Shown here: positions 12,432 through 39,135 of the stretch, one piece after another
Layout: each line of letters starts with the position of its first letter
How positions within the stretch are numbered: the first letter of the stretch is position 1
Virus record (IMG/VR): IMGVR_UViG_3300046718_000591
Span: 1 to 39,135 of that record
Origin: a virus
Reading direction: 5' to 3' (one strand)
DNA length: 39,135 bases
Made by a program: the position numbers and the translations under genes
Notes under the pieces: model-generated
What the model was told of the DNA's origin: nothing
The model's input: the letters and a program-made list of their open reading frames with translations, nothing else
Database searches by the model: none

Positions 12432-12538
12432 CTCCCTGCCCTCCCTGTAAGGGTCACGACGGATACGCTGCTGACCAGCGCAAGGGAGAGGTTCAGGGAG
12501 CCGGTCAGGGAAACTCCCTATCCCCTCGCCGTCTCCCT
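12432..12538. repeat. Cluster of CTCCCT/AGGGAG hexamers between convergent genes
   Basis: CTCCCT occurs on the plus strand at 12432, 12441, 12514 and 12533. Its complement AGGGAG occurs at 12483 and 12495, with a related CAGGGA at 12506. AGGGA-AAC-TCCCT at 12507-12519 is a small hairpin. It lies between the 199-aa gene and the FtsK gene, which converge. It may be a terminator zone or a protein-binding cluster; DNA translocases of the FtsK/TraB type recognise short repeated motifs. Confidence 0.45.
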
Positions 12539-14861
12539 ACGGTTCGGGAGTCTCGCCGGCCACCGATTCGCGGGCATCCAGAGCCGCCCGAACCTCGGCA
12601 TGGTCGACGTGCATCGTGCCGTCCTTCGTCTTGTACGGCACGACCGCATGCGGCGCGAGCTCCGTCCCGAGCTTGTTCACGGTCCAGCCCGCGTAGGCAT
12701 CCGGGTCGGTCGCGGCCAGGCGCCGGACGACCTCCGAGGACTTCACCAACGTCTCGTCCGGGCCGAGGACGCCGGCGACGTCGCCCAGGACGTCGCGGTC
12801 CTCGACGTCGACCGCCGGGTCCCTGGTCGCCACCGGCCTGCGCATCGCCTTGGCGCGGTCGGCGATGACGATCGCCGCCTTGCCGTCGACGAAGTGCGTC
12901 CGGATCGTCAGCGAGGCCTGTCCGGGCGGAAGCTCCACCCCATCGCCCGCGACGACGAGCGTGCCCTTGTCGAGGCCCTGGCGGAGCTTGTGCGGCGCCG
13001 CCCCGCCGTCGATCGCCTTGTCTCCGAGCGCCATCCGGGCCTGCGCCTCGGTACCGACGACCAGCGAGGCGCGGATGTGCGCGCCCTCGCGGACCAGCTT
13101 GGGCAAGTTCTGGTCGGTCGGGTCCTGCGTGCCCTGCCACAGCAGGACGTTGACCGCGCGGCCCTGGTTGTGGATCTTCCGCGCGGCCATGAAGTAGCGG
13201 CTCGTGGCCTTGGTGCCGCCGTAGGGCCGGCGATCGGGGCCGATCGCCGGGCACATGAACGCCTGCTGCGCCTCGTCGACGACCAGGATCAGCGGGTGGA
13301 ACCCGGATCCGGCCTTGCGCGCCATGTCGCGGGTCACGCCGTCGGTGGCGCCGGACTTCTCCAGCGCCACCGTGCGGCGCTCCATCTCGGTGACGCCGTC
13401 TTCGAGCATCTCCGTCGCGGCGATGCAGTGCTCGTCGGTCGGGCCCTGGATGAGCACCGTGGCCAGGCCGTTCAGCATCCGCCAGTCCCCGACGCCCTTC
13501 AAGTCGGCAAGGCGGACCTCGACGAACCGGTCGAGCAGGGCCCACAGGACCAGCGCCCTCAAGGCCGCGGTCTTGCCCTGGTTACTCAGGCCCGTGATGA
13601 GCAGGTGACGCTGAAGCAGGCTGATCAGCGCCGCGCCGCCGCGCAGGTCCTGACCCCACGGCGCGCGGCCGGCGTACAGGTCGGCGACGAGGTCGGGTTC
13701 GATGACCAGCGGAGACGGGCCGATCGGCTCGTCAAGGGCGCCGCTGTCGGCGATCCACAGCCGGACGGTGCGAGGGGCCGGCGGAATCGTGATGAACACC
13801 TCGTGCTCGTGGCGGTGCAGGTTCTCCGCGAGCTTGCGGCGGCTGTTCTGGATCTCCAGCGTTGACGTGCCTTCCGGGAGTGTGACGTCGACCTCGACGC
13901 CGCACCCGGCGATCCTGATGAGGCTGAGCATGGTGGCGCCGTTGTCGCCCATGGCCTTGATCTTCGTCCGCAGGTTGGCGATGCCGAGCTCGCGCAGGGC
14001 GACGACGACGAGCGACGGGGTGATCGGGGCACTGTCGGTGTCCGTCTGGCCTTCCGGTGCGAGCCAGGCGGGCATCTCGGCGCGCTTGCGGCCGACCGAC
14101 CACAGCGTCATCAGGCCCGCGAACACGGCCGTGAGCACCGCGGGCGCCCACAGGATGGACGCGAGGGTGATGGTGAAGCGGACGACGTCCACGGCCGTCA
14201 GCAGCGGTACCGCGGCCTCGTGGGGGTCCCTGTTCGCCGCGGCCAGGCACACCCCGATCAGCAGCAGCACGCCCACCGCCGTGGCGGTGCCGTAGGTGAC
14301 GGCCTTAGCGGCGTGGACGGGGGCGTGGAGCAGCTGCATGCGGCGGGCGTGGCGGGCGGCACGGTGCTGAGATGCCCGCTCCTCCCAGATCAAGGCGACC
14401 TGGTGGTCGCCCTTCGCCTCGGCCGCCCTCATGAATCGGTGGTGCCTGGCGGTCGTGCGCTCGTCGCGCAGGTGCCGGCGGGTCAGGACGGCGCCCGCAC
14501 CGACGAAGACGACCTGGCGGGCGGCGGCGCGGGTGACGCGGTGCTCGGCGACGACCCTGACCTTGTGGAACGGCCGTCGCGGCTCGTCGGCGGCATCCTC
14601 CTCGACCTCGACCGAGGCGGCGGCGCTGGCTTGGTCGACCACCGGAGCGGCGTCGGCCACGGGCGCGTCCTGCTGCTCGGTGCTGTTCTCCTGCGCCTCC
14701 AGGTGCTCGGCGAGGTCGGTGTACCCGGGGCCTGCCTGGCGCCCGTCGTCGCGCAGGAACTCCGGGACGTCGAGGTCTTCGGCGTCGGCGGGCCCGCGGT
14801 TGACGTCGTCGGCCTGCGCCGGGACCAGCCGCTGGTAGCCGTTGAGCTGCTGCTCGGTCAT
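12537..14861 (-). CDS. FtsK/SpoIIIE-type DNA translocase
   Basis: 774 aa from the ATG at 14861, overlapping the previous stop (ATGA). An acidic N-terminus (~1-100) and a basic helical region (~140-185) precede two membrane spans (~190-209 and ~227-254). A linker domain and the motor follow: Walker A GLSNQGKT (424-431), LADLKGVGDW, Walker B LILVVDEAQ (524-532), and the VLLWQGTQDP sensor region. The C-terminus (~690-770) resembles a small winged-helix unit. The sequence type matches FtsK-like proteins of Streptomyces integrative and conjugative elements, which pump double-stranded DNA between hyphae. In a phage it could aid DNA transfer or segregation. Its upstream partner is the DUF2637 protein. 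Confidence 0.9.
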   Translation of the reverse strand: MTEQQLNGYQRLVPAQADDVNRGPADAEDLDVPEFLRDDGRQAGPGYTDLAEHLEAQENSTEQQDAPVADAAPVVDQASAAASVEVEEDAADEPRRPFHKVRVVAEHRVTRAAARQVVFVGAGAVLTRRHLRDERTTARHHRFMRAAEAKGDHQVALIWEERASQHRAARHARRMQLLHAPVHAAKAVTYGTATAVGVLLLIGVCLAAANRDPHEAAVPLLTAVDVVRFTITLASILWAPAVLTAVFAGLMTLWSVGRKRAEMPAWLAPEGQTDTDSAPITPSLVVVALRELGIANLRTKIKAMGDNGATMLSLIRIAGCGVEVDVTLPEGTSTLEIQNSRRKLAENLHRHEHEVFITIPPAPRTVRLWIADSGALDEPIGPSPLVIEPDLVADLYAGRAPWGQDLRGGAALISLLQRHLLITGLSNQGKTAALRALVLWALLDRFVEVRLADLKGVGDWRMLNGLATVLIQGPTDEHCIAATEMLEDGVTEMERRTVALEKSGATDGVTRDMARKAGSGFHPLILVVDEAQQAFMCPAIGPDRRPYGGTKATSRYFMAARKIHNQGRAVNVLLWQGTQDPTDQNLPKLVREGAHIRASLVVGTEAQARMALGDKAIDGGAAPHKLRQGLDKGTLVVAGDGVELPPGQASLTIRTHFVDGKAAIVIADRAKAMRRPVATRDPAVDVEDRDVLGDVAGVLGPDETLVKSSEVVRRLAATDPDAYAGWTVNKLGTELAPHAVVPYKTKDGTMHVDHAEVRAALDARESVAGETPEP

Positions 14862-15034
14862 CGCTGCCACCACCGGAGGTTCGCCTCGGCGCGGATGACG
14901 GCGATGTTCGCGTCAAGCCAGGCGTCCGTCTCCTCGTAGATGCCTGCCTTGCACATCTCGCGGTAGACGCGATCGAGTTCGGCGCGCGCGGCCTTGTGCG
15001 TGGCGCGTGCCGACTTGCGGACAGAGGAGGTCAT
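14858..15034 (-). CDS. Small basic helical protein, 58 aa
   Basis: MTSSVRKSARATHKAARAEL starts a helical protein continuing DRVYREMCKAGIYEETDAWL and ending NLRWWQR. ATGA overlaps join it to the genes on both sides, so it is made with FtsK. The basic N-terminus and hydrophobic C-terminal helix suggest a small partner of the translocase. No family recognised. Confidence 0.6.
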   Translation of the reverse strand: MTSSVRKSARATHKAARAELDRVYREMCKAGIYEETDAWLDANIAVIRAEANLRWWQR

Positions 15035-15928: not shown

Positions 15929-16945
15929 TCAGTGCTGCGCGGTGCCGTTGACGGCGTCGACGGACGGAACCTCGCCGGTGTCATCCGGGCCGGGCCGGGG
16001 CCCGTGCCGCTCGGTGAGGGTCTTGAATTCGCGGTAGACGAGTGACGTGGAGCGTCCCGATTTCGCGGCTGTCACTGCTGCGGGTTCGCCGTTCAGCCAT
16101 CCGGTGGTGATGTAGGCGCGGGCGGTGTCGGTGTCCACGCGGGTGCCGGGTGTGATGTCGACGTCGTCGTGAACCTCGGCAGGGGTGGGCGGCGGGGTTT
16201 CTACCGGCGCTGGCTGCGGCGCGACGGCGGGGTCGGGGGTGTGGGTGTGAACCTGCGCGGCCACCGGCGGGGCGGCGACGGCGGATGCGGGGTTCGCTGT
16301 GTCGGCCGGGTCGGCGTCGCGGGCAGGCCGGGTTTTGTGGCCGGGGAACAGCTCGGCCAGCCGGTCACGAGACTCCCAGCGGCGCGCACCCCACACCGCG
16401 AACGGGTGGTGCAGCCACAAGTCCGCATCGACCTTCGCGGACATGCGCGACCGGCGGCGCTGCTCGCGCTTGGCACGCTCGTTGACGCGCAGCTCCAGCA
16501 TGAGGATTTCGAACGCGAATGCGGAGGCGACTGCCGGGGCGGAGACCAGCACGTGCAGGCCTGTTGACCAGTGCTGTGACGATGCGTGTTCCCAGTTCAC
16601 GTATACGCTCGCGGCGATCATCAGGTAGGTGACCAGGCGTGGGAAGCGGGCGGACTGGCCGCGGTTGGTGAATCTGGCGGCGAAGTAGGCGGCGAATAGG
16701 CCGATGCCGTCGATGGCTGCGGATGCCGAGGCGGCGAGGAGCATTGGTGCTAGGGCTTCGCGGGCGTAGCCGTAGAAGCTCCATGCGGAGATCCCGAGGC
16801 CTGGCAGTAGTACCAGCATTGATAGTGGGATCAGGTATTTCCGTTCCCGCTTGGCCAGCGGCGGCGGCGGTGCGGCGGGGCGGGCGGGTTCGGTGTGCTG
16901 GTCTTCCGGCGTGCCGGTGGCGGCTCTATCGTCTTGGGCAGGCAC
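15929..16945 (-). CDS. DUF2637 membrane protein (spread-type)
   Basis: 338 aa from a GTG at 16945 with AAGGAG about 9 nt upstream. After a Pro-rich cytoplasmic start (~1-35) come four membrane spans: ~37-58 (LIPLSMLVLLPGLGISAWSF), ~66-92, ~103-120 and ~128-150. A basic helix (RVNERAKREQRRRSRM) and a long Pro/Ala/Val tail with HTHTPDPAVAPQPAP follow. The last ~70 residues look like a small DNA-binding unit (DTDTARAYITTGWLNGEPAA, GRSTSLVYREFKTLTERHG). This arrangement is the DUF2637 family of actinobacterial plasmids, integrative elements and prophages, usually next to an FtsK-like gene, as here. Confidence 0.85.
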   Translation of the reverse strand: MPAQDDRAATGTPEDQHTEPARPAAPPPPLAKRERKYLIPLSMLVLLPGLGISAWSFYGYAREALAPMLLAASASAAIDGIGLFAAYFAARFTNRGQSARFPRLVTYLMIAASVYVNWEHASSQHWSTGLHVLVSAPAVASAFAFEILMLELRVNERAKREQRRRSRMSAKVDADLWLHHPFAVWGARRWESRDRLAELFPGHKTRPARDADPADTANPASAVAAPPVAAQVHTHTPDPAVAPQPAPVETPPPTPAEVHDDVDITPGTRVDTDTARAYITTGWLNGEPAAVTAAKSGRSTSLVYREFKTLTERHGPRPGPDDTGEVPSVDAVNGTAQH

Positions 16946-21057: not shown

Positions 21058-21365
21058 GTGTCCTCGTCTTGGGTGGCTTTGCGGTCGGCTGCGCAGCCTC
21101 GGCAGGGCTGCTGCTGCATGTGCGTCGGGCAGACGCCGTGGCGGGTGCGCATCGTCGGCGCCGCGCCGCGCTGCTGCCCGGGTCCCCAGCCGCGCAGGTC
21201 CAGGCGCGTCAGCAGGCGGTTGGCCAGCCGCTCGGCGGTGAGCGCGCCCTGCGCGTCGCGGATCTCGTGAACGAACGTGAGCAGCAGGTTGCGGCGTTCG
21301 TCGGAGGCGGGGTTGTCGGGCGGCTGCCAGTACGGGACGAGGCTGCGCTTGCGGGCGTCGGTCAT
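21054..21365 (-). CDS. Hypothetical protein with Cys ending, 103 aa
   Basis: MTDARKRSLVPYWQPPDNPA, then SDERRNLLLTFVHEIRDAQG, AERLANRLLTRLDLRGWGPG and a C-terminal cluster HGVCPTHMQQQPCRGCAADR with three Cys and two His, possibly a small zinc site. ATGA-coupled directly after the initiator gene, which makes a replication accessory role (for example helicase loading) conceivable; this is context only. Confidence 0.6.
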   Translation of the reverse strand: MTDARKRSLVPYWQPPDNPASDERRNLLLTFVHEIRDAQGALTAERLANRLLTRLDLRGWGPGQQRGAAPTMRTRHGVCPTHMQQQPCRGCAADRKATQDEDT

Positions 21366-22225
21366 GAGGCTTTCGTTTCGGGTCGTTGGGCGATCTCGGC
21401 AGCGAGGACGGCGATGAGCGTCGCTGACGGGTCGGGGATGCCTTCGTCGCGGAGCTGCTTAACGGCGGCGGCTTGGAAGAACTCGCCGCTGTTCGGGAGC
21501 GCCATCAGGATCTTGAACGCGGCGGCGTACTCGTCGGCGGTCGGTGCCGCTCGGGCGTTGATCGAATCCATCCGCGACAGCTCGGGGTTGATCTTGTCCG
21601 GATCCGACTCAGGTGAGGTACCCGGCTGAGGCAACCCAGACGGGTTTTGTGGTTGGTCTTGGTTGGTCTTACTTGGTGGCCGGAACCCCGGTTCCGGTAG
21701 CGCGACGTGGTGGTTCCGGTAGCGATGCGTGGGGGTTCCGGTAGCGGAGTTATCCACAGGGGTCTCTACCGGATCCTGGGTTCCGGTAGCGGTGGCCGTT
21801 TCGGGGTTATCCACAGGCCCGGCTACCGGAACCACGGTGCCGGTAGCGGCGGGCTTCGGGGCCCGCTTCTTCGGCTCCTTCCGGGGTGTCAAACGCTCCC
21901 AATTCGGATCCAGGCGCATCACCAACGGATCCGCGTCCGCCCCCGGAACCGTCAGCTGATACACGTCCGCTCGGCCGCGCGTCTTGCCGTGCTGGACGCG
22001 CTCGATCAGCCCAAGATCCCGCATCTTCGCCAGGTGCTCCCGGACGGCGCGCACGGTCATGTCGGTGATGTCCGCGAGCAGCTCCTCGCCCGGGCGTACT
22101 TCGCTACCGTCCCGGCTCGCGAACGACGCGAGAATCCCGGCCAGCGCCTTCGTGGTGAGGGACAGCTCGCAGCGCGCGACGATGCGCTGCCAGTCGAAAC
22201 TGTCCATTGGCTGGTGCTTCACCAC
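21362..22225 (-). CDS. Replication initiator with winged helix; carries the origin
   Basis: 287 aa from GTG 22225 (GTG 22222 and ATG 22207 are alternatives). Residues ~20-95 are a winged helix: LSLTTKALAGILASFASRDG, LADITDMTVRAVREHLAKMR, DLGLIERVQHGKTRGRADVY. Residues ~125-215 are a disordered Pro/Thr/Asn linker with repeats ATGTVVPVAGPVDN and ATGTQDPVETPVDN, encoded by the iterons and DnaA boxes. Residues ~225-287 form a helical C-terminal domain. This matches the plan of phage initiators such as lambda O, whose origin also lies inside the gene. No helicase or polymerase is visible nearby, so host replication proteins would be recruited. It is divergent from an antitoxin gene behind a sigma-70-like promoter. 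Confidence 0.8.
   Translation of the reverse strand: MVKHQPMDSFDWQRIVARCELSLTTKALAGILASFASRDGSEVRPGEELLADITDMTVRAVREHLAKMRDLGLIERVQHGKTRGRADVYQLTVPGADADPLVMRLDPNWERLTPRKEPKKRAPKPAATGTVVPVAGPVDNPETATATGTQDPVETPVDNSATGTPTHRYRNHHVALPEPGFRPPSKTNQDQPQNPSGLPQPGTSPESDPDKINPELSRMDSINARAAPTADEYAAAFKILMALPNSGEFFQAAAVKQLRDEGIPDPSATLIAVLAAEIAQRPETKAS
21750..21758 (+). promoter_or_regulatory. DnaA box 1
   Basis: TTATCCACA, a perfect match to the TTATNCACA consensus. It is 16 bp after the start of the third iteron and 14 bp before the start of an inverted iteron. In the protein it encodes Val-Asp-Asn on the minus strand. Confidence 0.8.
21807..21815 (+). promoter_or_regulatory. DnaA box 2
   Basis: A second perfect TTATCCACA in the same orientation, 57 bp from the first, again 14 bp before the start of an inverted iteron and 29 bp before a direct iteron. 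The 57-bp module is duplicated. Confidence 0.8.
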
Positions 22226-22263
22226 GCTCGCTTTCTGTGCTGTTCGTCGTGATCAGTGGCTAT

Positions 22264-22291
22264 ATCTTACAAGACTTGCTAACCTTTGCAA
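22264..22291 (-). promoter_or_regulatory. Promoter of initiator operon
   Basis: On the minus strand TTGCAA (22286-22291) and TAAGAT (22264-22269) are 16 nt apart, a good sigma-70-type pair about 40 nt upstream of the initiator start. Two GCTAAC words (22278-22283 and 22297-22302) flank the -35 box 19 bp apart and could be an operator. Confidence 0.65.
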
Positions 22292-22308
22292 CAGTGGCTA
22301 ACTGTCAC

Positions 22309-22331
22309 CATGGCCTACCATGTTGGCCATG
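22309..22331. promoter_or_regulatory. Operator-like inverted repeat before antitoxin
   Basis: CATGGCC (22309-22315) and GGCCATG (22325-22331) are perfect 7-bp arms around 9 nt. It lies 24 bp upstream of the preferred antitoxin start, as expected for Phd/YefM-type autoregulation, and between the two divergent promoters. Confidence 0.55.
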
Positions 22332-22355
22332 TCCGTAAAGGTTGGAAGGTCCGAC

Positions 22356-22619
22356 GTGAACGCCCTGCCGATGACCAAGGCCCGCCCGCGCCTGACGGAG
22401 ATCGTCGACAGGGCTCGGGACCGCGACGCCGCGATCGCGCTAACCGAGTACGGACGGCCGCGGGCGATCGTCGTGTCGGTGCCCTTCTTCGAGCGCGCGG
22501 CCATGACCAACGACCTGGCGTATCTGCTGCAAGAACGGCATCCGCAGCTGCTCGCGGAACTGTTGCAAGACCTGCCGACCGCGCCGGCCGTACCGTCGAA
22601 GATGGACGAAGACTTCTGA
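22356..22619 (+). CDS. Phd/YefM-type antitoxin, no visible toxin
   Basis: 87 aa from a GTG at 22356, chosen because GGAAGG lies 6 nt upstream; ATGs at 22320 and 22329 have no ribosome site and fall in the operator. The N-terminus MTKARPRLTEIVDRARDRDA then AIALTEYGRPRAIVVSVPFF is the Phd/YefM fold (dimer, DNA binding), and the C-terminal helix (AYLLQERHPQLLAELLQDLP) would be the toxin-binding tail. No toxin follows: the next gene converges two bases after the stop. It may neutralise a host toxin, regulate only, or be a stability relic from a plasmid. Confidence 0.8.
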   Translation: MNALPMTKARPRLTEIVDRARDRDAAIALTEYGRPRAIVVSVPFFERAAMTNDLAYLLQERHPQLLAELLQDLPTAPAVPSKMDEDF

Positions 22620-22621
22620 CC

Positions 22622-22915
22622 TCACCCTCGCCGCCTGCGCTTCTCGTCCCGCTGGGCTTTGCAGTACTCGCGCCACGCCTTGCGGCAAGGCTCGCACGTG
22701 GCCTCACCGGCGTGCACGTGCCGGCCGTAGGCCGCCGCCGTACCACACGGCTGGAGCTCGTCCGGGCGCGGCTTCGCGTCCGGGTGGCGCTTCCGGTAGC
22801 GGGCGACCTGCCGGGCATTCTCCGCAGCACGGCAGGCCTCACAGGGCGTCTCGCCGTTGCGGAAGTGCCGCCTGTATGCAGCGACCGTGCCGCACGGCTT
22901 CAGCCACCCGCTCAC
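22622..22915 (-). CDS. Tandem PCGT Cys-motif protein
   Basis: 97 aa from a GTG at 22915 (GTGA overlap). It contains two copies of one module: PCGTVAAYRRHFRNGETPCE (~7-26) and PCGTAAAYGRHVHAGEATCE (~56-75), each continuing to a second Cys (CEACRAA, CEPCRKA) and a basic helix. Each module has one Cys from PCG and two from CxxC plus a His, a likely zinc knuckle. Modules of this kind are scattered through actinobacterial and actinophage proteins. Nucleic-acid binding is likely given the Arg-rich ending. Confidence 0.7.
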   Translation of the reverse strand: MSGWLKPCGTVAAYRRHFRNGETPCEACRAAENARQVARYRKRHPDAKPRPDELQPCGTAAAYGRHVHAGEATCEPCRKAWREYCKAQRDEKRRRRG

Positions 22916-23394
22916 GCCCGTTCCCCGCTCGTCCGCCGCGCTGTCCACGCCGCCGGACGCGCGTCTCGCAGCGCAGCCCTGTCACGTGCCTCGTCGGCTG
23001 CCCGGGCCTCGTCGGCCGCGCGCTGCATCCGGTGCAGCGTCACCCGCAGCCCGGCAGCATCCGCCGCGTGGACGCAGCCCTCGGCGCACTCACGCTGCGC
23101 AGCAGCGAGCATTTTCGCCCCGGACGCGACCTGGTCCTTCAGGCGGCGGTTGTCACGGTGGACGTCACGCAGCTCGGATGCCTGCGCGGCTTTCTCGTTG
23201 CGGAGCTTCTGGTTCTTGGCGCGTTCGGCGGCGAGCAGCAGCTCTACGCCTTCGGCCGCCTGCTGCTGCTTGCGTGCGGGCTCGGCCCGGTCAAGCTCAA
23301 CCAGCAGCAGCGCGGCCACGCTGGTCGGCTCGAACCCGGCGCGCGGGACCGGGACCGGTGTACGTATGGACCGCAGCCACGACAGGCCGGTCAC
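22912..23394 (-). CDS. Coiled-coil hypothetical protein, 160 aa
   Basis: GTG start at 23394, overlapping the upstream stop. After a hydrophobic-basic N-terminus (SWLRSIRTPVPVPRAGFEPT) the protein is a long helix: LLLAAERAKNQKLRNEKAAQ, ELRDVHRDNRRLKDQVASGA, ADEARAADEARDRAALRDAR. Two Cys lie near residues 104 and 108 (ECAEGCVH). It is probably an oligomeric rod. Function unknown. Confidence 0.6.
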   Translation of the reverse strand: MTGLSWLRSIRTPVPVPRAGFEPTSVAALLLVELDRAEPARKQQQAAEGVELLLAAERAKNQKLRNEKAAQASELRDVHRDNRRLKDQVASGAKMLAAAQRECAEGCVHAADAAGLRVTLHRMQRAADEARAADEARDRAALRDARPAAWTARRTSGERA

Positions 23395-25394: not shown

Positions 25395-25864
25395 GCGGCC
25401 ATCTCGCTTGCGATCCGTGCCTCGGTGACGTGCTCGTCCGGCAGGTACGGCGAGGCGTACCCACCATCCCGCACCTCCAGCCGCAGCGTTGCGGCGTGCC
25501 GTGCGGGCTGCGTGGGCGGGTTGACGGTCGGCATCTGCGCCGGGGTGTAACCCTCGTACACGCTGTTCGGATCCGGCTCGACCACATACCCGCGCCGGCC
25601 CGCAGGCCCGAGCGGACGCTCCTCCCGCAGCGCGGCCTCGTACCGGGCCCACCGGTTGATACGCACCGTGTGCCAGCCGGACGACAGCGCGGCCGACAGC
25701 AGCAGCGAGAACGCCGCCAGGAAGGTGCACGCGCTGATTCCGGCGGCGATGATGCGGGTGGTGTCCGGGTTCTCATACGCCAGGCGGACCGCGACTACTG
25801 CGGCGCAGCAGGCGACGTCGACAGCGGCGAAACGCACCGCCAGGGCGCGGTAAGGGCGGCTCAT
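25391..25864 (-). CDS. Two-span membrane protein, 157 aa
   Basis: From the ATG at 25864. Membrane spans at ~8-27 (AVRFAAVDVACCAAVVAVRL) and ~38-60 (IAAGISACTFLAAFSLLLSA), then a cytoplasmic domain of about 95 residues (RINRWARYEAALREERPLGP, RGYVVEPDPNSVYEGYTPAQ, DGGYASPYLPDEHVTEARIA). Coupled by ATGA overlap to the upstream Lsr2-tailed protein. Function unknown. Confidence 0.6.
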   Translation of the reverse strand: MSRPYRALAVRFAAVDVACCAAVVAVRLAYENPDTTRIIAAGISACTFLAAFSLLLSAALSSGWHTVRINRWARYEAALREERPLGPAGRRGYVVEPDPNSVYEGYTPAQMPTVNPPTQPARHAATLRLEVRDGGYASPYLPDEHVTEARIASEMAA

Positions 25865-26805
25865 GATGCTCCTTCGTGGGCTGCGTTGTAGGCGGCGACG
25901 ACCTCGGCGCGCAGGATGCCTCGGACCGGGACTTCCCAGCCGTTCGCGATGGCCCAGGCGCGCATGGTCGATGTGGATGCGGACACGGCTCCCGAAGGCG
26001 ACGGGTCCCGGCATGGCTCGGGCTCGGGCGCCGGTTCGCGCGGAGCGGCATCGTTGCCGAGCAGCGCGGCAAGCTCCGCCTCCGTCGTTGCGAGCTGGCG
26101 GCGCAGCACCTCCGCGGCGATGGTCAGCGTTCTGACCTTCTCGTCGCTGTCGAGCAGCCGCGTCAGCTCGGTCAGCTGCTCGCGGACTGTGGCGGCGAGC
26201 TGGCGGACGCGGGGCTGCACTGAGGCCTCGGCGCGGGACAGCAGCCCGTCCGTGCCTGCCGTGGGCGCAGGCGGCGGTGTCAGCTCGTCCGGATGGCTGC
26301 CGTCCTCGTCGGCCAGGGCCGCGTCCCAGCCGACGGGCTCCGGCTCGGCCGGGAACTCGGCCTCGGTCTCGCGGCCGACGACGTGCACGACGATCGGGGC
26401 CGCGGACTCGGCGATGGCATCGGCGAGGATCCCGTCGAAGTCGGCCGTCTCTGGCTCGTCAACGGGCCCGGAGTTGGCCGGCGCGGGAAGCACGTCGGGC
26501 GCCGCCACATCCGCGGTGGCCCCGTTCTCGGCTTGCTCGGCGAGAGTCCACAGCGAACGTGTATCAGGCTCCCCAGGTGTTGGAATCTTGTTCCATGCCG
26601 CCTGCCGTGCCGTGGTCCGTGCGGCCTGCGCGCGGAGCTTCTCCCACTCGGCGTGCCATCCGATGGCTGTTTCGATCTGCTTCTCGGACAGGCCGGTCTG
26701 GATGATGATGCTGCGCATGGCGTTGCCGAGGCCGTGGAGTTCTACGGCTCGTTTCTCGGCGGGGTTGAGTGCCCGCAGCCCGTTGGCGGTGGCGGTCTTG
26801 CTCAC
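25861..26805 (-). CDS. Lsr2-tailed DNA-binding protein, 314 aa
   Basis: GTG start at 26805 (GTGA). N-terminal ~1-70 has a helix-turn-helix-like region (KRAVELHGLGNAMRSIIIQT, GLSEKQIETAIGWHAEWEKL). The middle is acidic and Pro-rich. Residues ~200-245 are a coiled coil (VRQLAATVREQLTELTRLLD, AAEVLRRQLATTEAELAALL). The last ~37 residues, STSTMRAWAIANGWEVPVRG then ILRAEVVAAYNAAHEGAS, match the C-terminal AT-hook-like domain of Lsr2, the actinobacterial H-NS analogue. It could bind AT-rich DNA, compete with host Lsr2, or counter silencing. The fusion layout is unusual. Confidence 0.75.
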   Translation of the reverse strand: MSKTATANGLRALNPAEKRAVELHGLGNAMRSIIIQTGLSEKQIETAIGWHAEWEKLRAQAARTTARQAAWNKIPTPGEPDTRSLWTLAEQAENGATADVAAPDVLPAPANSGPVDEPETADFDGILADAIAESAAPIVVHVVGRETEAEFPAEPEPVGWDAALADEDGSHPDELTPPPAPTAGTDGLLSRAEASVQPRVRQLAATVREQLTELTRLLDSDEKVRTLTIAAEVLRRQLATTEAELAALLGNDAAPREPAPEPEPCRDPSPSGAVSASTSTMRAWAIANGWEVPVRGILRAEVVAAYNAAHEGAS

Positions 26806-38851: not shown

Positions 38852-39135
38852 CTATTCGAGCCACGTGACCCACGTAAGCATGTTCGCCGCCGCTGAGAAG
38901 GTGACCCGGACGCGCAGGAACTTCGACACCGCCACGATCGGCCGCTCGTCTGGCATGAAGTCCCGGAAGTAGTAGTTCGACTGTGCGCCGTTGGACACGC
39001 CGAGGATCTCCTGGGCATCGAACAGCCGGGACGCGGTGGTGGTGCCCTCCGCCGATGCCGTGAAGCCCGTGGCGGCGGTGCCCAGGGTCATCAGCGATGC
39101 CGGTGCGTTCGGGTCCAGCGGCTGCACGCCGGCGG
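38852..39135 (-). CDS. Tail protein, 5' end cut by window edge
   Basis: The last 94 codons of a minus-strand gene entering from the right edge. The frame stays open to the edge (Ala-Gly before GVQPLDPNAPASLMTLGTAA), so the GTG at 39127 is probably internal. It ends FLRVRVTFSAAANMLTWVTW followed by LE. The part DAQEILGVSNGAQSNYYFRD and FMPDERPIVAVSKF looks beta-rich. Position just before the minor tail protein suggests a distal tail or tail-tip component. Confidence 0.6.
   Translation of the reverse strand, partial: AGVQPLDPNAPASLMTLGTAATGFTASAEGTTTASRLFDAQEILGVSNGAQSNYYFRDFMPDERPIVAVSKFLRVRVTFSAAANMLTWVTWLE

Follow-up and report, generated by a model that had tools for sequence, protein, structure and literature searches.

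The DNA analysed here, referred to as the window, is the whole virus record of 39,135 bases, with a GC content of approximately 0.61-0.73 per kb. Its genes include those for capsid, protease, portal, terminase, ERF recombinase and integrase, and the window therefore represents a temperate tailed phage. GC skew gave no information, as one strand holds most of the genes. Among the window ORFs submitted to Pfam, none was recognised as a helicase loader or DnaB, no P-like helicase loader was recognised by PHROGs among eight other window ORFs, and no partition gene was found among the ORFs tested. The phage genome additionally encodes an FtsK/SpoIIIE-like ATPase (12537-14873, minus strand; PHROG 1358, 2.5e-18) and a DUF2637 protein (15929-16945, minus strand), both being familiar from actinomycete conjugative elements, as well as a 314-aa protein with a C-terminal Lsr2 DNA-binding domain (25861-26805, minus strand).

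The gene under study encodes a 287-aa protein and carries a compact array of repeats, listed below in the sense of the gene.

21362-22225, minus strand: gene for the 287-aa O-like initiator (PHROG profiles, AlphaFold2 model)
21836-21848, minus strand: iteron D1, one mismatch, CGCTACCGGCACC in gene sense
21821-21833, plus strand: inverted partner of D1, one mismatch
21807-21815, plus strand: DnaA box, perfect TTATCCACA, exact match
21779-21791, minus strand: iteron D2, exact, frame 2, read TATGTQ
21764-21776, plus strand: inverted partner of D2, two mismatches
21750-21758, plus strand: DnaA box, perfect TTATCCACA, exact match
21734-21746, minus strand: iteron D3, exact, frame 2, read ATGT
21712-21724, minus strand: iteron D4, exact, frame 0, read RYRN
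21690-21702, minus strand: iteron D5, exact, frame 1, read ALPE, with a palindromic extension to 21680
21637-21676, no strand assigned: candidate DNA unwinding element (nearest-neighbour energies)
21651-21670, minus strand: two tandem AAGACCAACC copies with a 10-bp period, inside the low-stability stretch 21637-21676

Divergent from this gene lies a Phd/YefM-type antitoxin gene (22320-22619, plus strand). The intergenic stretch between them (22226-22319) is AT-richer; GTGGCTA / GCTAAC motifs recur in it and may serve a phage repressor as operators.

The protein comprises a winged helix (residues ~9-92), a linker (~93-213) and C-terminal helices (214-280). Its identity as an initiator, proposed in an earlier note on this DNA, is supported by matches to O-like PHROG profiles, with hits to 26991 (1.5e-17, no function named), 270 'replication initiation protein' (3.2e-11), 391 'replication initiation O-like' (6.4e-10) and 678 (6.8e-07). 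Pfam returned only weak helix-turn-helix matches below the cut-off, and no match to the RepA_N domain at E <= 1. The AlphaFold2 model, built from a 15-row alignment, displayed a confident winged helix, a linker of low pLDDT (~100-213, mostly 43-60) and a C-terminal helical domain of moderate confidence, in agreement with the disordered linker that had been proposed. Foldseek against the PDB placed 4pql ('DNA binding protein') and 4pt7 ('initiator') as the first two folds, ahead of MarR-type regulators. The top folds, including 4pql, 4pt7 and 5kbj, matched weakly at E 0.015-0.05, none reaching E <= 0.001; we take these three entries to belong to the RepA_N plasmid initiator family. Against the viral library, 40 matches reached E <= 0.001, one of them named replication protein O, and a PDB sequence search with the protein returned generic regulators only.

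The array had originally been described as three copies of the 13-bp word GGTTCCGGTAGCG exactly 22 bp apart, translated on the minus strand as ALPE, RYRN and ATGT. These copies are present at 21690-21702, 21712-21724 and 21734-21746, with spacings of 22 and 22, and are read in frames 1, 0 and 2 of the 287-aa ORF. The description was right in this respect and missed the rest of the array, namely a fourth exact copy, a one-mismatch copy, two near-inverted partners and two perfect DnaA boxes, together with the low-stability stretch. In gene sense, D1, its inverted partner and a DnaA box are followed by D2, its inverted partner and the other DnaA box, then by D3, D4, D5 and the low-stability stretch, with direct-iteron spacings from D1 to D5 of 57, 45, 22 and 22. 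D1-D3 share a common frame, with D4 and D5 occupying the other two. The five direct copies lie at gene offsets of 377-535, in the linker between the domains, and 21637-21676 falls within the lowest 1.1% of the window's 40-bp stretches for stability by nearest-neighbour energies.

Comparison with chance expectation set the array apart. GGTTCCGGTAGCG is the only 13-mer with at least four copies in the 39-kb window, its exact copies all falling within 102 bp. None of 2000 synonymous-codon shuffles of the gene, preserving both protein and codon set, gave three copies of any 13-mer; this result and the uniqueness of the word in the window rule out a chance repeat. A looser statistic (10-mers, one mismatch, linker only) found five copies in the gene, a number reached by ~2 of 100 shuffles (p = 0.03), and with up to three mismatches 33 iteron matches occur window-wide, which is only mildly high, with 1 of 100 shuffles reaching 33. 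The earlier note had called the array direct evidence of selection on DNA; selection gains comparative support from the relatives described below, but at the looser p of 0.03 the single gene is weaker evidence than "direct" implies.

A single-protein scan of viral contigs revealed no close relatives of the window. In a phage collection, tblastn identified 17 mycobacteriophage records, all below 60% identity, and each of the seven mycobacteriophage loci read exhibits the same plan inside the homologous gene, which is annotated only as encoding a helix-turn-helix protein. The plan consists mostly of units of 33 bp, each combining an iteron, an inverted iteron and a DnaA-box-like 9-mer, and ends with final copies ~34 and 22-23 bp apart, and the iteron word is CACCGGAAC in one group and ACGACCGGACAC in the other. 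By eye, the C-terminal domain is Cys-rich in the mycobacteriophages, whereas it is helical in the window. A second gene annotated as helix-turn-helix occurs two genes downstream of the initiator in 7 of 7 mycobacteriophage loci (L005 3579-4454, with equivalents across L002-L008).

Since a scan of genome contigs gave just two loci, genomes were sampled with a winged-helix profile, initially as 6 records and then as partly overlapping sets of 397 and 394 genomes, with matches at E <= 1e-8 in 23 and 18 genomes, respectively. Profile and pattern searches together produced 82 genes with usable reading frames, grouped into 41 clusters at 55% identity over 85 residues, with the window alone in its own cluster. 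Nine of ten homologues tested matched PHROG replication-initiation families, and the remaining one (L114) matched none. Eight distant loci were extended to 13-18 kb, where selected neighbours comprised integrases (L129, L130, L136), a capsid protein (L130) and a phage polynucleotide kinase (L132), with those of L133-L135 giving no clear phage call.

Phasing was measured by scoring, per cluster representative and for every lag between 12 and 60, whether any 10-base linker stretch recurs (9/10 identical) at that distance. Lag 22 occurred in 21 of 41 clusters, compared with a mean of 4.2 and a maximum of 8 over 30 synonymous shuffles, and in 3 of 85 neighbouring ORFs of the same loci. With the window left out, lag 22 was present in 20/40 clusters (shuffle mean 3.58, maximum 11; 0/500 reaching 20) and lag 23 in 11 (shuffle mean 1.82; 0/500 reaching 11); lags 21 and 24 were not clearly above the null, with 43/500 and 14/500 shuffles reaching the observed values. 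As neither 22 nor 23 is a multiple of three, the pattern reflects phasing of the DNA and not a peptide repeat. Lag 22 is absent in 20/41 clusters, with neither 22 nor 23 in 13/41, and some of the distant clusters without lag 22 may not be initiators. Eighteen of 41 clusters contain chains of at least three copies at 21-24 bp, and in 16 of these the frame changes; six shuffles gave 0-2 such chains and 0-1 frame-changing ones. A best-seed test applied gene by gene left many single genes non-significant; being underpowered, it was replaced by the pooled lag test. Both tests cut genes at 350 codons and excluded those with undetermined bases or fewer than 330 bases. Related genes keep the 22-bp phasing with differing iteron words and linker peptides.

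Particularly striking arrays, with 4-5 copies at exactly 22 bp, are found in the initiator-gene linkers of L117, L114, L110 and L112. The L117 array, near CTCAACCGGAAG, is read LNQK, AQPE, VSTG, LNRK and SQPE.

The stability comparison and one of the correlations with the recognition helix described below used a hand-chosen set of 24 clusters, consisting of 16 with at least three copies and 8 two-copy clusters judged convincing; L098 was dropped because it is an in-frame 24-bp repeat, and L105 because it was poor. Among these 24 clusters with arrays, one without a value, the DNA after the last iteron was less stable than that before the first in 21 of 23 (Wilcoxon p 6e-5). When stability was compared across the gene and as much as 600 bp of flanking DNA in either direction, the stretch following the array was, at the median, the least stable one.

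On the plus strand, 0.015 exact copies of TTATCCACA would be expected per window (0.018 for the complement), and the gene holds two; 2 of 5000 synonymous shuffles of the gene reach two DnaA boxes. With one mismatch allowed, TTRTCCACA was found 7 times in the window against 6.2 expected, indicating no excess, so only the two exact boxes in the array carry weight. The patterns used were TTWTNCACA, TTGTCCACA and TTGTTCACA. Consensus boxes occur in 35/35 genes of the window's cluster and two mycobacterial clusters, with every listed box on the other strand from the gene. Across all clusters, a linker DnaA box was found in 5 of 41 representatives (without TTGTTCACA; shuffle mean 0.49, maximum 3), and the boxes are thus a branch feature and not a general one. 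The predicted origin of the window contains the consensus boxes of a putative DnaA-assisted origin.

Iteron words differ between clusters. Four-fold silent-site divergence was lower in iterons than in the winged helix in two relative clusters (0.093 vs 0.328 in 17 genes; 0.0 vs 0.231 in 15 genes), with the silent-site mask drawn from the consensus word and therefore favouring low divergence in iterons. The outcome that the earlier note had named as refuting, a linker peptide retained with the DNA word lost, was not seen in these clusters. Silent sites in the DnaA boxes had a low divergence of 0.02 in the first of the two clusters, whereas the second gave 0.23. Iteron similarity correlated with recognition-helix identity across 31 clusters (rho 0.19, p 0.002), with the peak among sliding windows at that helix, and in the hand-chosen set of 24 clusters rho was 0.27 (p 0.0005), against 0.02 for the remainder of the winged helix; the correlation was not significant when confined to the 16-18 clusters whose arrays are longest (p 0.09-0.16). 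These values are no more than suggestive of an iteron word that weakly follows the recognition helix of the same protein.

Several known systems share parts of this organisation. Iterons, DnaA boxes and a low-stability stretch are combined in iteron plasmid origins such as RK2 and P1, whose arrays lie outside the initiator gene, whereas the window array is intragenic. Lambda O with its intragenic origin, put forward as the precedent, stands as such: the available portion of PMC7466680 describes an initiator of the O-like type whose gene carries the iterons at its centre, with an adjoining AT-rich stretch, and this AT-rich part next to the iterons matches the low-stability DNA after the arrays here. 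Shared with the lambda O type are the O-like family, several iterons in the linker and a low-stability stretch 3' of the array. The three-frame reading, which had been emphasised in the window, is not special to it; the annotated lambda iterons at 39034, 39054, 39078 and 39101 (spacing 20, 24 and 23) occupy frames 0, 2, 2 and 1, already covering all three, and frame change is therefore a property of the class. Conversely, lambda has four iterons without the module of iteron, inverted iteron and DnaA box, and its P gene follows O, whereas no loader was recognised in the window. By the patterns used, neither lambda O nor TP901-1 rep contains a DnaA box, whereas the window gene has two.

RepA_N initiators, exemplified by pSK41, resemble the window protein in their winged-helix N-terminus, their origin-encoded linker and the top folds 4pql, 4pt7 and 5kbj; they differ in belonging to Firmicute plasmids, with a fold match not significant at E 0.001 and no RepA_N sequence match. 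In pSK41, according to excerpts of PMC5703833, the winged-helix N-terminal domain binds four Rep boxes central in rep, the linker is encoded by ori, and the C-terminal domain is thought to be host-specific. SPP1 likewise has direct repeats within its initiator gene 38 (gp38, oriL) and an AT-rich unwinding element, as given in the accessible part of PMC6316719, but differs in possessing a second origin, oriR, a dedicated loader, gp39, and a helicase, gp40.

Taken together, the region ~21637-21848 is most likely the lytic replication origin of the phage, located where its own initiator gene encodes the linker, and the array, its relatives and the protein family argue well for an intragenic origin. 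The complete reading, in which a lambda-O-type intragenic origin has DnaA boxes added and operates by the steps below, is one we hold with high confidence. The winged-helix N-terminus of the 287-aa protein would bind the iteron CGCTACCGGAACC, and the correlation with iteron words hints that its recognition helix may make the contact. The two outer modules of direct iteron, inverted iteron and DnaA box, along with the inner direct repeats spaced by two helical turns, would gather the initiator and host DnaA on one DNA face, the use of DnaA perhaps being signalled by the two perfect boxes. The adjoining low-stability DNA would open. More speculatively, the C-terminal domain might assist recruitment of the host helicase.

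Other functions for the array were considered. The protein could mainly repress its own gene, by autoregulation or handcuffing, with the repeats acting as an operator or copy-control array and the origin lying elsewhere. Inverted iteron pairs, which are typical of repressor sites, are present in the array, and the divergent Phd/YefM-like gene and AT-richer intergenic stretch upstream would suit such regulation; the iterons, however, lie ~375-535 bp inside the gene with no exact copy at the promoter, they are interleaved with DnaA boxes, the low-stability DNA falls on the same side of the array in 21/23 clusters, and the protein is of the O-like family, making this explanation unlikely. Recognition of the array by a partition or packaging protein, as a centromere-like site or a site for packaging, is very unlikely: although partition systems also use iteron-like arrays, and an array of this kind accompanies an FtsK/SpoIIIE-like ATPase in the window, no partition gene was present among the ORFs tested, and the array sits inside an O-like gene with iteron words that weakly follow the recognition helix of that very protein.

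The least probable of these alternatives is a repeat at the peptide level, in which the linker (ATGT..PVDN) expanded and DNA identity is a by-product of recent duplication. The outer modules, at 57 and 45 bp, do stay in one frame and code for peptides that resemble each other, and the mycobacteriophage relatives have 33-bp in-frame units, but the inner copies shift frame here and in 16 of the 18 clusters with chains, and lags 22 and 23 stand clearly above the null with 21 and 24 not doing so. These frame changes and lags, together with the failure of all 2000 protein-preserving shuffles to give three copies of a 13-mer, led to its rejection.

An origin inside the initiator gene is already known, with precedents in lambda, SPP1 oriL and pSK41 ori. 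New here are the broad actinobacterial family, the 22-bp rule and the DnaA boxes inside the initiator gene; searches of open-access journal papers showed no previous account of iteron origins lying inside a gene in actinophages, of their 22-bp phasing or of DnaA boxes within the initiator gene. Mycobacteriophage replication systems were described in 2020 as not well characterised for lytic growth (available portion of PMC7157519). Extended to the whole class, the interpretation describes a large, previously unrecognised group of actinobacterial phage and prophage initiators with the origin in the gene's linker, 22-bp iterons in shifting frames, a 3' unwinding stretch and a word changing with the recognition helix as a private replication code, one branch having DnaA boxes that tie replication to the host initiator; for this extension we see the chances as evenly balanced. 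If right, origin and initiator would be findable by sequence alone in many actinophages and prophages, yielding testable mini-replicons. Within a single stretch, the frame-shifting 22-bp rule would set the function of the DNA apart from that of the protein, and the variation in iteron words would offer a natural series for studying joint change of initiator and site.

Two minor observations concern DNA outside the array. A lone one-mismatch iteron copy is located at 22789-22801 (plus strand), in the neighbouring ORF 22622-22948. Additionally, a GTSP motif follows the array in the window (21612-21623) and in the mycobacteriophage equivalents; its DNA hardly varies, being GGGTACxTCACC in most of the cases read, and the motif is possibly also constrained at the DNA level.
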